Positions 18,601-31,599 of a stretch of 64,000 nt of DNA are shown here, one piece after another (the first letter of the stretch is position 1; each line of letters opens with the position of its first letter). Under the pieces are notes generated by a model. It worked only from the letters and a program-made list of their open reading frames with translations. It was not told where the DNA came from and searched no databases. This stretch comes from Apostichopus japonicus (taxonomy: Eukaryota; Echinodermata; Holothuroidea; Aspidochirotida; Stichopodidae), in NCBI RefSeq assembly GCF_037975245.1, contig NC_092574.1, positions 21,663,713-21,727,712 on the forward strand, in the 5' to 3' direction. The position numbers and the translations under genes are program-made.

Positions 18601-20211
18601 TTGGAGACTACCAGTGCAACAGCTCCATGTCTCTTGTGAAGGTGATATTGATTTTATCAAAAGATGTAATGATTCTTTTCACAGCAAGAAAGAAATGAAA
18701 AAGAAAGCTACAGAAGGCTGGTCTATAAAGCTTGTGTTCACCTACTGTGATAGTATGGGTAGGGTTTAAATTGAGCTACCATTTTTAACACCTAGAATTC
18801 ACATAATTACTTTTAAACTAATGTATTGGTTATTGTTTGCATACATATCGTATGCTTGCCGTATAGATATTGTACGGACATATACATTGTGAACTTCAAT
18901 TTGTTTGAAATGTTTTGATGGTTTTCGCTTCGACAATCAAGCCATAATTTTAAGTCCATTAGAAATTTTGTCTGTGATTTCCCAGGCAGCTTTTCCGTTT
19001 ATGATTTTGCTTAACTACTCATTAATTTTTTGGTATTTAATATTTCACTCTTGCAGCTTCTGAAGGGAAAGGGTTTCAACTCTCCTAGAGATGTAGCACA
19101 GGCCATTTTGTCAAATATTCCTCAGAACGATATCATCGAGAAGGTAACAGACATGTTGAAATTTTATTAGTCTAAATTTACAAAGTTCCAAAAATCCTTA
19201 ACTTTTGTGTCCTCATGTTGTCTTTTGTCTCTGTATTTACGTAACAATTGTTGTTATTGAGCATAATTTCCATATTTTCATGCCCAAGTAAATTATTAGC
19301 TGATATCTTGTATTGTGTAAAGTTGTTCAAACTTAAGAAGTATTCTTAAGGAGTTTTGGAAAGTATCCATACACTTAACAGTACATGTCCCAGGAAGTAG
19401 TTTATTGGGTGATTAAAGGTGCTGCTTAAAATGACTCATGCTTGAAGGCTACACGCAAGCTTTATTTAAGATTGTGAATTTGTTTCGATCAGCAGTTACA
19501 TTAGCTAACTATCGAAAATCTGTTCGGAATCAGTCGAAAAAGGTCACTTCACTATGAAATGCAATAAATTTGATTAAAACCGCTTTACAGGTTGAAATAG
19601 CTGGTCCTGGATTCATCAACATACACTTGAAGAAGTCCTTTGTACGACCACTCATCTCTCGTCTGGTCAAAGAGGGCGTGGTCCCCCCTCCCGTGGGCAG
19701 AAAGAAGAAAGTATGTATTGACATGTCCTCCCCAAACATTGCCAAGCAGATGCATGTAGGTCATCTAAGGTCAACCATTATAGGAGAGAGTATTTCAAGA
19801 TTGCTGGCTTTTGTAGGTGAGAAAGAATATTTTATTCTTATTCTGACAAAAAAATTCATCATTGATTAGAAAACTAGTGGAAAAAAACAAATGTGGGCAC
19901 ATCTTTTTGATTTGTTCTCATTAGATTTTTATCTTGTGATCAGAGATGACATTTTTTTTCTTGATTTTTAGTTATGCATTTGTTCTGTATTTCAAGGTCA
20001 TGATATGCTGAAGATTAATCACCTTGGAGATTGGGGAACTCAGTTTGGTATGCTAATAGCACATTTGGAAGATAGATTTCCAAACTACACGACGGAAGTT
20101 CCTCCACTTCAAGATTTGCAGATGTTTTACAAGGTTTGTTTTCCTTATATATGTGTATATGTGTGTTATTCTTTATTTATATATATATTTATATATATAT
20201 TTTTATATATA

Positions 20212-26200: not shown

Positions 26201-29200
26201 AACTACATTGGTCCTTCCAGTGTTCTTCTGCTAAGGATTTTGTTTAAGGTTCTTTTCTACAAGTTCCACAGGATTTGAAACCAGGTGTATCAATGTTATG
26301 CATAAGGACAGATTACTCCTGTACAAAAGGATTTTCATATGTTAAATTTGGTTGCCAAATCGTGTCGCTTCCGTTATTAAACTTATATACATTGCCATAT
26401 AACTATCCACCAGACATTCACTCAAGGAAATGTTTGACGGTGCTCATGTATGTATTTTAGATCCTCCTGCGAGCAGGAACTCGCGAAGAAGCCTCATTGG
26501 CTTATCAAAGTCGCAAGCTGACCGAAGTCAATCTCTTACATTCATATTTAACGTCCATGATTATGAATTGTCAATTGTCAACAACTCTGTAACTGGACGA
26601 CATACATTAATCTTGGAATGACTCGAACCGGGGACCTTATGATTGGAAGGCACCGGCGTTAACCACTGAGCTAACACTCCAAAGCTAACACTCATGCAAC
26701 ACACTTTCGAGTGTTTCTGTAAACCGTGCACCAGAGGGGCATAGTTAGCCGATAGTTAGTCCTACTAGTTTAACAAACGAAACAAAGCTACCATCCCCAT
26801 GTATCACATGACTCTCGTTTAAGTGTTACATTCTAACACACAGTAAATCAACAGAGTGACGTATCTCTCCGAAGGTAGATTAGCTTTGTTACTTATCATC
26901 CGCTGTTAGGCTATCGCAAAAAGCTGACAATAATGTTGTGTGGATGGTGGTGTTACTATGGGAACCAACCTAGCTACTTTAAGCGTTAAATATTTTTCTG
27001 CCTAGGTCCTTTCTCCAGAAGAACTCGAAGCTGCACAGAATTCGGTGGCCTATGGATGTATAAAGTACGCCGACCTCTCTCACAACAGGAACAACGACTA
27101 TGTGTTTTCCTTTGACAAGGTAGGCAGAAGAAAATGCAAGATACTAATGCTACAATATGTCACGTAGGCTTACATTTTACGACATGCTCTAAAGCATTTT
27201 TAATGAAAACCTTAGTGAGGAGAGGTTTGTCTACTAAATGTTGCCATAGGATGCTAGAAAGTCATTCAATAAGACAGGATCATGGAAGATGATGGGGGGG
27301 GGGAGGGGTGACAAAACCACTTGTCAATGGAGAAACTTGCAATAATGGTTAATTTTATGTATACCATGAATGGCTATTAAAGAATGTATTCAGCCATTCA
27401 GGGAACTTGTGTTCCATTTGGTGGGGTGATTGTGGGGGGGGAGGTAAATGGGGAGCATGATGCATGCAGGGGACCGGTCAAGGCTAAGAGGGGTATGTAG
27501 TAGGTACTACAATAATCTCCTTTGGCTTTCCTGGTGATGGTAGTAGCATCACTTAATAGTGCTTTACATTTAATCAATTCCAACTGATGAAGCCTTGACA
27601 ACAGAAATTACATTACATTATATGACTGTCAAAAGGAACTTGCTTAAGAAATTGGAAATGCAACTTGCCAAGTTTTGTTTTATGGACATAAGTCTCTGTG
27701 AAAAGATGCGTGTAACCAAAGCAACTTCCTTCTTATTGTTATTTGTGTTTGGAGTGATGAATTTAATTTTAGTAAAGTATCCTACTATTTCAGATTTTAC
27801 TTCCTTTGGTTTTATTTTTACTTATGTTTATTTTATTTTATTTGTTTTGTTCAGATGTTGGATGACAAAGGAAACACCGCTGTTTATTTACTGTATGCCT
27901 ACACAAGAATAAGGTGAGAGAGACAAAGATCTTTTTGCTGTTAAGATGATGCTATTTGTCAAGAATTGTTGACAACATGACATGTTATTTAGCTTCGTGA
28001 AATTTGAGGTTCACTTAGTAATGGCAAAGTACACTTGGGATATCTGAAAGATTTTTAGGGCACTTGGTAATAGGAAATCTTGATCAAATCCAGGTGGGCT
28101 ATTAATTCCTTTTATTTTCGGGGGGGGGGGGGGGGGTTAAATCAACTCACAACACACATGTCTTCAGTAAGTTGCTAGTCACTGGTTGTCAAATCACATA
28201 GTCTAAAAATTAGTCTTTTGTCCTGCAAGTCAAAATTGCTCAATTCAAGTTGCGAGTCATTTGCTGCCAAGTCAGTCTCCATTCAAGTTGTAAGACACGT
28301 TGCAAGTTGTAAGACACATGTCTCTGTTCATGTTGTAAGACACATGTCGTCAAGTCACACAGTCTCAGTAACAAGTCGTAAGACACATGTCATCAAATAA
28401 CAGTCTTAATTCAAGGTTGAGAGTCATATGTTGTCAAGTTAGACTCAATTCATGTTGTCAGTCATTTGTGGTCAAATCCGTCTGATTTCAGGTTGTTAGA
28501 GACATAATAATAATAATAATAATAATAATTATAATAATAATAATAACAGCATCAGTTATTTTTATGGTGCTTAAGCGACTTCAAATGTGGGAGAAATCCG
28601 CAAGGGCTTATTGATTACAACTTTGTAAGTAAGACTTGCCATAAAGTCACAGTCAGTTCCAAGTTGCAAGTCTGTTGTCTTCAAGTCACATAGTCTCAAA
28701 TCAAGTTACAAGTCTGTCATTTATCATTGAATCATTTGTGTCTTGACTCCTGAGTTGTCAGTTACTCCTATTCAATGCCGGCATTTACATTTCAAAATAA
28801 ACTCAAAGAATTGAGAATTATGATTATTATAATGCAGTTCGCTATCTAAGTAGCAGAGCTTTATGCCATCGGGTTCCCTTTTGTCAGTTTCCATTTGTCT
28901 GGAGACTTTTCTTTGTCCTCTGTTCAAAGCCTTTATTTCTTCAAGATCTAAATCTGTTCACCATAGCTATTTCACCTCCCGAAGCAAACAAAAGAACGCC
29001 TTACCATTAAGAGAATTCTCTCAGCAGCTTTACTAGACCAGGTTTCATTTCTAATTCCCACAAAGGTCGATAGCAAGAACGGCTAAAGTCAGTTCGGAGA
29101 AGATACGAAACGCGGCCAAGGAAACACCTGTTCCTCTAGATCACGCCAAGGAGTGGAAACTCTCAAAGGTTTTAGTTCGTTTTCCTGAAGTTATACTTCG

Positions 29201-30237
29201 GACCATGGACGACCTGTGTATGCACACGCTCTGCGACTATCTCTACGAAGTGGCTAACACATTCACGGAGTTCTACGAAGTCTGCTATTGTGTGGAGAAA
29301 GACAAACAAACAGGTACTTTCATTGTTTGAGAAATTAATCAACGATTTGATGAACGATAAATGATGATTTAAAGCCGGCTAACGGAGGCTGGTTAACTCT
29401 TTTGATCTTCCACAGAGGAAAACCTGTAATAATGTTCGACATATTTTGAGTTTGTAGCCTAAACTTTGTACCTTGCTAGTACTTATTACTACAGCTAATT
29501 CAACTTTTTAATTTTTTAACATTGTTTCCGTGTTCTCGAGTACAACTTTTTAACAAGCTTCATGAATAATCAAAAACAAGGAATTGTTTCTTCCTCCATT
29601 TCATTGTTCACCTCTGCAATGTTCAAATATATTGTAATCCAATACTAGTGAAGGAATTAGTGTGCATAATCTGAAGATTCAAAAGTAAAATTTGAATTCA
29701 GTTCATTGGTCAGACTGAATGGGATTTCTGGAACTAGGAACCAGTGAGCCACTGGGTCTGAGATTCCAAAGGTGCCATCCGGATAATATGCCAAAGGTGC
29801 CATCCGGATAATATGCCAAAGGCGCCATCAAGACATGATGCGGAAGGCGCTGGCTTTGTTGGTAACAAATGGTGCTAATATTATCCAAGTGTGCAATTTC
29901 CAAAAAGCCCATCCATCATGACCAATTGATTGAACTCAAAGGAGAATTCAAAGGTGCCAAATGCACCACCGGCTGGATCGTTAAGCCGCTAAAATTTATG
30001 CCCCAGTTAGCTCATGGACATCTTGTATAGAAAGAGGTTCCATTCTTTGTACATATCTGTGATTTCTTGCCTGCTAACATTCTAAAATATTCTCTCTCTC
30101 TCTCCCTCTCTCTCTTTGCCTGTTTAGGTGAAGTGGTCAGCGTTGACATGGGTCGTCTGATGCTGTGCGAAGCCACTGCCAATGTTATGGCAGAATGTTT
30201 TGACATTCTTGGACTTCAACCTGTCCAAAAGATGTAA
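15628..30237 (+). CDS. RARS1: Cytosolic arginyl-tRNA synthetase RARS1, complete gene (15 coding exons)
   Basis: The fifteen exons join in frame to 664 aa (1,995 nt with stop), against 660 aa in human RARS1. The enzyme ligates arginine to tRNA-Arg; in many animals it belongs to the multi-synthetase complex through its N-terminal coiled coil. Seen here: a heptad-like N-terminus (residues ~5-64, [14 protein letters not shown]...[13 protein letters not shown]), and the ArgRS N-terminal domain ([10 protein letters not shown]). [15 protein letters not shown] follows, then the class I HIGH box as HVGH (211-214), [27 protein letters not shown] (382-394), and the degenerate KMSKS-equivalent KKFKTRSG (454-461). 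The C-terminal DALR anticodon domain is roughly 527-664, ending PVQKM. The start is GTCAACATGG, a good context. The gene looks intact, with no frameshift or missing core motif. Confidence 0.98.
16193..16246 (+). repeat. 27-bp tandem duplication
   Basis: GTGAAGCGTATTCTAGTTAT begins at 16193 and again at 16220, giving two head-to-tail copies 27 bp apart immediately upstream of a CRE. Confidence 0.85.
16248..16255 (+). promoter_or_regulatory. Consensus CRE TGACGTCA
   Basis: A perfect palindromic TGACGTCA (CREB/ATF site) about 575 bp into RARS1 intron 1, followed at ~16300 by GATATAAATCACGCG, a TATA-like sequence. Confidence 0.45.
16376..16434 (+). promoter_or_regulatory. CCAAT-bearing 14-bp inverted repeat flanking an octamer
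   Basis: ATTGGTTGAGTGCC (16376-16389) and GGCACTCAACCAAT (16421-16434) are perfect inverted copies, each with a CCAAT box. The 31-bp spacer contains the octamer ATTTGCAT and a near-palindromic GCATATG/CTGCATAT core. Confidence 0.6.
16584..16647. repeat. Perfect 19-bp inverted repeat (hairpin)
   Basis: CCCGAAGTCTACAGACGTA (16584-16602) pairs with TACGTCTGTAGACTTCGGG (16629-16647) across a 26-nt loop. It could be the remains of a small foldback transposon or a structured RNA; no family is recognised. Confidence 0.75.
17491..17637 (+). CDS. RARS1: RARS1 exon 2 (coiled coil)
   Basis: 49 codons rich in E, K and L with a leucine-zipper-like spacing, ending [10 protein letters not shown]. This is the N-terminal helix that binds the multi-synthetase complex in vertebrates. 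Boundaries are ACAG|GAG and AGG|GTCAGT. Confidence 0.93.
17638..18452 (+). other. RARS1: RARS1 intron 2
   Basis: Intron with a perfect 14-bp hairpin at 17788-17820 (CTTTATTTGTTGCA, 5-nt loop, and its reverse complement). The surrounding CATATGACA phrases are repeated. No coding sequence is present. Confidence 0.6.
18453..18641 (+). CDS. RARS1: RARS1 exon 3
   Basis: 63 codons including [19 protein letters not shown] and [17 protein letters not shown]. This is the start of the ArgRS N-terminal domain. The acceptor used is TAG|AGT, because the next AG downstream would give an immediate stop. Confidence 0.95.
18642..19590 (+). other. RARS1: RARS1 introns 3 and 4 (with exon 4 between)
   Basis: Apart from exon 4 this is plain AT-rich intron sequence with normal GT-AG ends. 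No repeat or regulatory element is recognised. Confidence 0.5.
19057..19143 (+). CDS. RARS1: RARS1 exon 4
   Basis: 29 codons, [20 protein letters not shown] then IPQNDIIEK, with phase 0 at both ends. It is the helix of the N-terminal domain that precedes [10 protein letters not shown]. Confidence 0.95.
19591..19816 (+). CDS. RARS1: RARS1 exon 5 (HIGH box)
   Basis: Carries [15 protein letters not shown], then [20 protein letters not shown] with the HIGH signature as HVGH. It ends one base into a glycine codon (GTAG|GTGAGA) that is completed by exon 6. Confidence 0.97.
19997..20133 (+). CDS. RARS1: RARS1 exon 6
   Basis: Encodes [20 protein letters not shown] then [10 protein letters not shown]...[13 protein letters not shown] is a near-invariant ArgRS catalytic-core motif. 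Confidence 0.97.
20161..20278. repeat. AT microsatellite inside an 18-bp inverted repeat
   Basis: GTGTGTTATTCTTTATTT (20161-20178) and its exact reverse complement (20261-20278) flank about 80 bp of TA-rich simple sequence. The right arm leads directly into the hammerhead-like sequence, so this probably marks the terminus of a mobile element. Confidence 0.8.
20290..20345 (-). ncRNA. Decayed hammerhead ribozyme motif (Penelope-like or retrozyme terminus)
   Basis: On the minus strand: CTGATGA (20327-20321), stem II GTCC/GGAC closed by CAAAA, AAAA where GAAA is required, then TCGGTC with a GTC cleavage triplet at 20300-20298. The upstream ACCTTTGC can pair with the downstream TTGAAGT as a short stem I. 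The CTGATGAGTCCCAAAAGGAC core is typical of type I hammerheads in animal Penelope-like elements and retrozymes. The lost G of GAAA should make it inactive. Confidence 0.65.
20346..20795 (+). other. RARS1: Rest of RARS1 intron 6
   Basis: This is probably the body of the element that carries the hammerhead, then ordinary intron. GGGGTGCACTCTGTAC and neighbouring sequence have no family that I can name. Confidence 0.35.
20796..20925 (+). CDS. RARS1: RARS1 exon 7
   Basis: Encodes [20 protein letters not shown] to [11 protein letters not shown], the ArgRS insertion and helical segment between GDWGTQFG and the substrate-binding strand. It ends in phase 1. Confidence 0.96.
20945..21400 (-). mobile_element. 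LINE 3' end fragment, minus orientation
   Basis: Read on the minus strand it contains [16 protein letters not shown], like the [10 protein letters not shown] end of CR1/L2-type ORF2. Then come GAGTGCTTTGAGATATTTTT, CATGTAATGCCCTATATAAA and an ATT-repeat tail ending near 20945. It is 5'-truncated. Confidence 0.55.
22030..23207 (+). mobile_element. Helitron-like non-autonomous element (Helentron/HINE type), candidate
   Basis: The left end is a 28-bp near-perfect palindrome (22032-22059) starting AGCTCATACC. Its inverted copy GGTATGAGCT lies subterminally on the right (23177-23186). A GCACCA/TGGTGC hairpin (23190-23202) follows, then CTAG. An 8-bp TCTATCAC microsatellite (about 22077-22122) sits near the left end. 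Asymmetric inverted repeats, a terminal hairpin and an internal microsatellite are hallmarks of Helentron-derived elements. No Rep/helicase coding remains. It occupies half of RARS1 intron 7. Confidence 0.6.
22531..22543 (+). promoter_or_regulatory. DR1 nuclear-receptor-like site in the Helitron-like element
   Basis: A perfect AGGTCAAAGGTCA (DR1, the HNF4/RXR-type half-site pair). A near match GGGTCAAAGGTCA lies at 22234-22246 and a weaker AGATCAAAGATCA at 22380-22392 in the same element. Confidence 0.45.
23288..23395 (+). CDS. RARS1: RARS1 exon 8
   Basis: Encodes [20 protein letters not shown] then [16 protein letters not shown]. It matches the N-KIY--L-V---RGES-Y motif of eukaryotic ArgRS. 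The preceding intron is the longest in the gene (about 2.4 kb) and full of transposon sequence. Confidence 0.96.
23550..23613 (+). repeat. 12-bp tandem repeat, 5 copies
   Basis: AAACCGTGGTGC is repeated five times without change in RARS1 intron 8. It reads as NRGA repeats in one frame but lies between splice sites with no exon evidence. Confidence 0.95.
23987..24165 (+). CDS. RARS1: RARS1 exon 9
   Basis: Encodes [16 protein letters not shown], then [20 protein letters not shown] and [21 protein letters not shown] shapes the arginine and ATP site. Confidence 0.97.
24166..24866 (+). other. RARS1: RARS1 intron 9
   Basis: Plain intron with a 16-nt C run near 24755-24768. Nothing else is recognised. 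Confidence 0.5.
24867..24976 (+). CDS. RARS1: RARS1 exon 10
   Basis: Encodes [20 protein letters not shown] then [16 protein letters not shown] plus a split lysine codon. It matches the VHF--IF-AA---GW motif, except that the usual Q-IF is DLII here, a modest substitution at a conserved strand. Confidence 0.95.
24977..25814 (+). other. RARS1: RARS1 intron 10
   Basis: AT-rich intron with a short GT repeat near 25220. No coding sequence or repeat family is recognised. Confidence 0.5.
25815..25920 (+). CDS. RARS1: RARS1 exon 11 (KMSKS-equivalent loop)
   Basis: Encodes [20 protein letters not shown] then [22 protein letters not shown] is the eukaryotic ArgRS replacement for the class I KMSKS loop. 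The acceptor is CCGTAG and the donor AAG|GTACGT. Confidence 0.96.
26455..26682 (-). mobile_element. tRNA-derived SINE, minus orientation
   Basis: Read on the minus strand, it starts GGAGTGTTAGCTCAGTGGTT (tRNA A box) and reaches CCCCGGTTCGAGTC (B box) with the 3' half of the T stem missing. A ~150-bp body without ORF follows. It sits in RARS1 intron 11. Confidence 0.6.
27006..27119 (+). CDS. RARS1: RARS1 exon 12
   Basis: 38 codons, [20 protein letters not shown] then [18 protein letters not shown]. The [19 protein letters not shown] block links the catalytic core and the anticodon-binding domain. Confidence 0.97.
27120..27854 (+). other. RARS1: RARS1 intron 12
   Basis: Contains two G-rich runs (near 27294-27308 and 27420-27450) and a T-rich polypyrimidine region before exon 13. 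Nothing else is recognised. Confidence 0.5.
27855..27913 (+). CDS. RARS1: RARS1 exon 13
   Basis: A 59-nt exon coding [19 protein letters not shown] plus a split arginine codon. It starts the DALR-type helical anticodon-binding domain (Y-LYA--RI motif). Confidence 0.95.
28140..28740. repeat. Degenerate tandem repeat in RARS1 intron 13, split by a retroposon tail
   Basis: Variants of TTCAAGTTGTAAGACACATG, TCGTCAAGTCACACAGTCTC recur about every 45-60 bp from 28140 to 28500 and again at 28640-28740. Between them are an ATA microsatellite (28506-28547) and TTTATGGTGCTTAAGCGACTT, a retroposon-like 3' end that seems to have interrupted the array. Confidence 0.6.
29066..29313 (+). CDS. RARS1: RARS1 exon 14 (DALR domain)
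   Basis: Encodes [14 protein letters not shown], then [40 protein letters not shown] and [20 protein letters not shown] and L--Y-YE-A--F--FY--C are ArgRS C-domain signatures. Confidence 0.97.
29766..29840. repeat. 25-bp tandem repeat, 3 copies
   Basis: CCAAAGGTGCCATCCGGATA... repeats at 29766 and 29791 without change, and at 29816 in diverged form, within RARS1 intron 14. Confidence 0.9.
30128..30237 (+). CDS. RARS1: RARS1 exon 15 (stop)
   Basis: Encodes [20 protein letters not shown] then [16 protein letters not shown] and a TAA stop. R--LCEA---V---GF-ILGI-PV-(R/K)M is the universal ArgRS C-terminus. A long CT-rich tract precedes the acceptor. Confidence 0.97.
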
Positions 30238-31325: not shown

Positions 31326-31396
31326 CCGGTCTGTGGTATCTCCCAAATGGAATCAGATTTGATTTGACTGATTGGGGCTAGTGTCATGACAGAGTT

Positions 31397-31590
31397 ATCT
31401 CGGCCTTTTGGCTAAGATCATGTGTAGTATCTGTTCCATTTCGAGGGAATGGTGATGCACACCTGACGATGATCACACAGTCACAGTCCCGATGCAAGGG
31501 GACTGGGGTTGAGAGCGATCAGTCGTGTGGTAGTTTTGGTTTTCGTGCCCAGGTTCTTTCCTGGGCGACTTTTCCTTAAAAGAAAAGTAT
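31397..31590 (+). ncRNA. U2-snRNA-headed RNA-like sequence (SINEU-like element or U2-derived RNA)
   Basis: TCTCGGCCTTTTGGCTAAGA and the next 19 nt (31398-31436) match the 5' domain of U2 snRNA with one difference, including the branch-site-recognition GTAGTA. After GTTC the sequence no longer resembles U2. A large imperfect stem-loop follows (31459-31530, with CAGTCCC/GGGACTG inside). Then come AGTTTTGG (31532-31539, like an Sm site), a hairpin GCCCAGG/CCTGGGC (31547-31566) and TTTT. Total length is about 190 nt, close to U2 itself. It could be a short retroposon with a U2 head, or an snRNA-like gene. Confidence 0.65.
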
Positions 31591-31599
31591 CTCTATCAC

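Follow-up and report, generated by a model that had tools for sequence, protein, structure and literature searches.

A family of SINEs with a U2 snRNA-derived head in the sea cucumber Apostichopus japonicus and its probable decayed member downstream of RARS1

The feature studied here lies at about 31398-31588 of the window (the whole stretch of 64,000 nucleotides of Apostichopus japonicus DNA that was analysed) and is very probably a decayed, dead copy of a U2-headed SINE of about 195 bp that has hundreds of relatives in the genome. Copies of this family are of the retroposon type: they are dispersed, have common ends, target-site duplications (TSDs) and truncations, and carry a head identical to the genome's own U2. 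Considering that the RARS1 domains recognised on the forward strand (arginyl-tRNA synthetase catalytic domain, 19558-19866; DALR domain, 29055-29327) end at 29327, the element is located approximately 2 kb downstream of the last of them, in agreement with the position given in an earlier note on this DNA. Beyond the element, cadherin/EGF/laminin-G reading frames are found on the opposite strand. The parts of the window copy are listed in Table 1.

Table 1. Parts of the window copy and location of the LINE loci in the U2 array
Feature	Position or loci	Strand	Basis or location
U2-derived head (U2 nt 7-45)	31398-31436	+	39/39 identical to own U2 gene; Rfam U2
Body, origin unassigned; bulk of the long imperfect stem-loop	31437-31529	+	Common to other copies; predicted fold
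Sm-like motif GTAGTTTTGG (family version GTAGTTTGG)	31530-31539	+	GGTAG(T)nGG count across loci
3' hairpin TGCCCAGG-TTCTTT-CCTGGGCG	31546-31567	+	Predicted fold; kept across family
3' end ACTTTTCCTTAAAAGAAAAGT	31568-31588	+	Family ends ...CTTAAAAAGTA or ...CTTAAAAAAAAGTA
Putative 6-bp TSD TATCTC, upstream	31396-31401	.	Identical six letters at 31588-31593
Putative TSD TATCTC, downstream	31588-31593	.	Match to 31396-31401
U2-array LINE loci	L092, L093, L100, L102, L107, L115		C16 ~31.015-31.156 Mb

The head was compared with one of the genome's own U2 genes (L042), and the 39-nt likeness to the U2 5' domain described in the earlier note proved to be complete identity. The sudden loss of U2 similarity described there was also found: past nt 45 the window reads CATTTCGAGGGA and U2 reads TTTTCAGCTTAA, with no U2 likeness thereafter. 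The initial 22 nt of the head had no match across 100 shuffled windows, and no second match with up to three mismatches was present in the window. The Rfam U2 model (RF00004, cut-off 46 bits), a check proposed earlier, gave the window copy 46.6 bits (E 1.8e-7), compared with 181.8-186.8 bits for genuine U2 genes, at least 46 of which were detected among the matches scored from 40,968 candidates; 42 of these are located at 31.015-31.156 Mb of contig C16, commonly 645 bp apart. No other Rfam family scored above chance level on a sister copy. The long imperfect stem-loop and terminal hairpin that had been noticed are supported by the predicted fold of the unit up to 31588 (-70.9 kcal/mol, z -3.19), which none of 200 shuffles equalled in stability. 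The T run was likewise seen correctly, as TTTT at 31570-31573, although it is not terminal and lies inside the 3' end before CCTTAAAAGAAAAGTA. Relative to the most complete family members, which start at U2 nt 1 and finish in one of the two family ends, the window head is 5'-truncated by 6 nt.

In the genome assembly (671,581,487 bases in 35 contigs), BLAST searches with the element returned at least 46 matches (40 of 2177 candidates scored), which are 91-96% identical, not counting the window copy and two fragments of ~40 bp. A 22-mer spanning the head/body junction occurs exactly 709 times genome-wide and its reversed pattern never, so the family shows the short, dispersed copies with common ends that define a SINE. 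TSDs were scored in a sample of 40 copies selected by position and exact junction (the first 40 places listed, 22 on C1 and 18 on C2) against a null of 971 mismatched-flank scores. The score exceeded the 95% level of the null in 27 copies and the 99% level in 22, and no TSD above the 95% level was found in the other 13; duplications in the 27 copies have a median length of 11 bp (range 5-23). For 27 of these 40 copies the match begins within nt 1-8; for the other 13 it begins after nt 8, which is read as 5' truncation. The TSD of the window copy itself is weak (score 4.7, with 95% and 99% levels of a like-built null at 3.95 and 5.39), and TCTC of its upstream repeat overlaps the head by microhomology. 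Since many copies with TSDs had been set beforehand as the outcome that would decide for a SINE, the earlier reading of the feature as a U2-headed SINE is upheld.

Alternatively, a single U2 fusion might have spread without retroposition inside larger repeats, such as segmental copies or DNA transposons, and common flanks of two copies (L063 and L064) as well as one 3' flank common to L065, L153, and L116 are what such a process would leave. However, the flanks of most of the 40 sampled copies are unrelated by eye and TSDs exceed the null in the majority noted above, which makes this explanation for the family very improbable. Some copies have nevertheless multiplied within larger duplications, and each copy is not always its own insertion. 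In L065, L153, and L116, CCCGGTATTCAATCA and variants of it follow the SINE tail, as in a copy carried inside a larger dispersed repeat.

Other arrangements of the unit were also observed. Tandem SINE units occur as a trimer (L023) and as dimers (L004, L025, and L040). L087 (316-701) contains three units that are cut at differing nucleotides and separated by repeats of the TSD letters, as though a single site had been re-used repeatedly; in L021, a second partial U2 start lies between the TSD and the head, as though a template switch had occurred during reverse transcription. With a body-only pattern that does not include the U2 junction, 30 matches were found, 29 of which retain an offset U2 head; the remaining one (L151) lacks this head and begins at nt 47. 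L120 was rejected as a sibling with a different head, its upstream part having matched itself alone (40 of 1357 candidates scored).

The earlier note had also considered a diverged U2-like RNA in which branch-site recognition and the Sm/hairpin layout were retained. The GTAGTA region is indeed intact in the head, the 3' hairpin is conserved across the family, and the stability of the predicted fold relative to shuffles would suit a structured RNA. The Sm-like site that was claimed is also present in the window copy (AGTTTTGG at 31532-31539). However, it is not a feature of the family, because 63 of 65 readable loci have AGTTTGG at this position: in the count of GGTAG(T)nGG, n is 3 in these 63 loci, 4 in one, and 2 in one, and the window copy has n=4, i.e., an extra T. 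In the 40-copy sample, TATTTTGG occupies the Sm place in one copy, and the position is unreadable in eight. Thus, compared with U2 snRNA (RF00004), the family has the same nt 1-45 and has neither U2 sequence after nt 45, including the U2 3' half, nor an Sm site.

Sequence divergence among copies also bears on this question. In an alignment of 111 copies of mixed origin, 38 had a tail of the CC type, 42 of T5, 8 of T4, and 23 of other types, and the median difference from the own consensus was 0.035 for CC, 0.044 for T5, and 0.085 for T4. In 23 near-full-length sampled copies, the difference from the subfamily consensus was 4.1% for head nt 9-24 (15/366; nt 25-46 served to pick the copies), 4.8% for the body (91/1889), and 5.6% for the tail (70/1262), and therefore no protection of the head was observed within nt 9-24. 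Considering the copy-specific Sm motif, the head that is no better conserved than the body in the part compared, the approximately 709 junction copies, and the intact U2 genes elsewhere in the genome, a functional U2-like snRNA is exceedingly unlikely, and we retain the reading as a SINE.

The element comprises a head of U2 nt 1-45, a structured body, and a 3' end made of the hairpin plus AAAAAGTA. As to how this SINE may have spread, its transcript would begin at the U2 start; a LINE reverse transcriptase would recognise the 3' end of the transcript and use target-primed reverse transcription to copy the RNA into a nicked site. Such an insertion would leave duplications of ~11 bp and, often, a 5'-truncated copy. 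The helper may be an APE-endonuclease LINE of a group present in this genome.

LINEs were found in the U2 genes themselves. Within the C16 array (~31.015-31.156 Mb, 645-bp spacing), at least three LINE families lie inside U2 genes at one site, and a LINE with a 961-aa frame sits between U2 genes of the array. One of the families, LINE A, encodes an ORF2 of 1162 aa with an APE-type endonuclease (Exo_endo_phos), a reverse transcriptase, and zf-RVT; it is preceded by U2 nt 1-50 and followed by U2 from nt 35 onward, and the same U2 3' flank was found on two more LINE families. All six family-A matches among 60 scored are at 31.02-31.17 Mb of C16. LINE A and the candidate helper group may be akin to Keno/Tx1.

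Keno and Utopia are described (PMC4640811) as LINEs that insert into U2 genes, Keno having an APE-type endonuclease. LINE A and the two further families occupy the corresponding U2 site and LINE A has an endonuclease of the same type, and LINE A in the U2 array thus fits Keno as described there. Unlike Keno and Utopia, the SINE lacks a reverse transcriptase, and its insertions lie outside U2 genes.

These insertions raise the question of whether the founder RNA came from a U2 gene interrupted at the U2-LINE site and transcribed from a U2-type Pol II promoter, a refinement of the SINE reading that we consider rather unlikely. The end of the SINE head at nt 45 falls inside the U2 interval of LINE A, and the internal T runs of the element (TTTT and TTTTT) would hinder Pol III. 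In addition, TTCTTTTC is present in 11 of 19 junction-pattern matches, with U2 unbroken to nt 50 in nine of them. The eleven copies (L138-L148) have TTCTTTTCGAGG at the head/body junction and mostly show U2 identity to nt 50. However, this variant is rare and U2 homology to nt 50 is not clearly ancestral, as older copies also read TTCCCCTTCGAGGGG. It is conceivable, if somewhat doubtful, that U2 is present at both junctions, with nt 1-45/50 in front and AGTAT, equal to nt 35-39, behind: AAAAAGTA(T) could be interpreted as the end of a LINE followed by U2 nt 35-39, yet the overlap is short and ambiguous, AGTA being short and the boundary between LINE end and U2 start falling at nt 35 or nt 39. 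A further argument against such a founder is that likeness of the body to LINE A or to the 961-aa LINE did not rise above chance. Comparison of the SINE tail with the U2-site LINEs revealed no match beyond AAAGTA.

A LINE family ~41% identical to LINE A is found mostly on C17 and also on C11, C16, and C7; one APE-type LINE family whose open frames are long is densely clustered at ~15.4-25.7 Mb of C17. The end of this C17-type LINE in L113 (GTTTGGTAGT...hairpin...TAAAAAGTA) is the closest to the SINE among the LINE ends seen, while most of the other LINE ends observed read GCA rather than GTA, some with GTTCGGTAGT. When comparisons were anchored at the end, the likeness to the SINE 3' end reached Z 4.7 for L113 and Z 4.2 for L110, beating 2000 of 2000 shuffles; when the last 10 nt were left unshuffled, p was 0.057 and 0.062, respectively, and the p values of six further LINE ends ranged from 0.026 to 0.62. 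The SINE and L113 also have a 10-nt run in common at a matching distance from the end, which 6 of 5000 shuffles reach. Unanchored likeness of the tails, tested on 35 sequences with L106 left out, was weak (15/300 shuffles), and L098 (9/300) and L103 (3/300) scored better, in flanking DNA. On the basis of these sequence comparisons, which are suggestive only, the helper of the SINE may belong to an APE-type LINE group present here.

No LINE bearing the SINE's own hairpin was found with two tail patterns (9 and 25 matches). Candidates with the tail and foreign upstream sequence turned out to be SINE copies or pieces (L089, L090, L091, L118, L119, and L121), truncated or old SINE copies (L117 and L120), or a tail-only match (L116, whose 3' flank is the one mentioned above). 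Inspection by eye of the 25 matches of the second pattern revealed no common upstream context except recurring SINE-like letters. The terminal 19-mer with foreign upstream sequence gave 18 matches and its reversed control 37, i.e., no signal; among its loci, L094 and L095 are SINEs, and L096 and L097 are not.

SINEU, reportedly described by Kojima in 2015 from crocodilians, is said to comprise SINEs whose heads derive from U1 or U2 snRNA, and a LINE of the Tx1 clade has reportedly been proposed as its helper. To our knowledge, snRNA-headed SINEs have been described from crocodilians only, and none was recognised from an echinoderm in searches of one open-licence literature library. Like SINEU, the sea cucumber family has a U2-derived head (nt 1-45 identical to its own U2) and dispersed copies with TSDs, and a LINE group akin to the one proposed for SINEU is the best candidate for its helper; the host is an echinoderm here and a reptile there. 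By its head and TSDs, the family joins the snRNA-headed SINEs, and it is probably of independent origin. The fuller proposal, which combines an independent echinoderm origin with a U2-gene founder, a Pol II start of U2 type, and a relative of the U2-LINEs as mover, is put forward as a possibility that we consider rather unlikely.

The family may also affect snRNA annotation. For an Apostichopus japonicus assembly, the genome report (PMC10344927) gives 996 'splicing' snRNAs identified by Infernal and Rfam and a SINE total of 159,644 bp. Because 16 of the 40 sampled copies exceed the Rfam U2 gathering score, the snRNA annotation is probably inflated, and part of the 996 snRNAs stated in that text are probably SINE copies. 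Separately, COX1 pieces were noticed on a small contig of the assembly searched here (L048, C29:14745-31219), with a full COX1 copy on C35.

Taken as a SINE, the feature is not a new splicing RNA and extends a rare type of element to a further branch of the animals. An echinoderm family would mean that snRNA-headed SINEs arise repeatedly, and with LINEs lying within the U2 array of the same genome, how snRNA heads get captured becomes testable.
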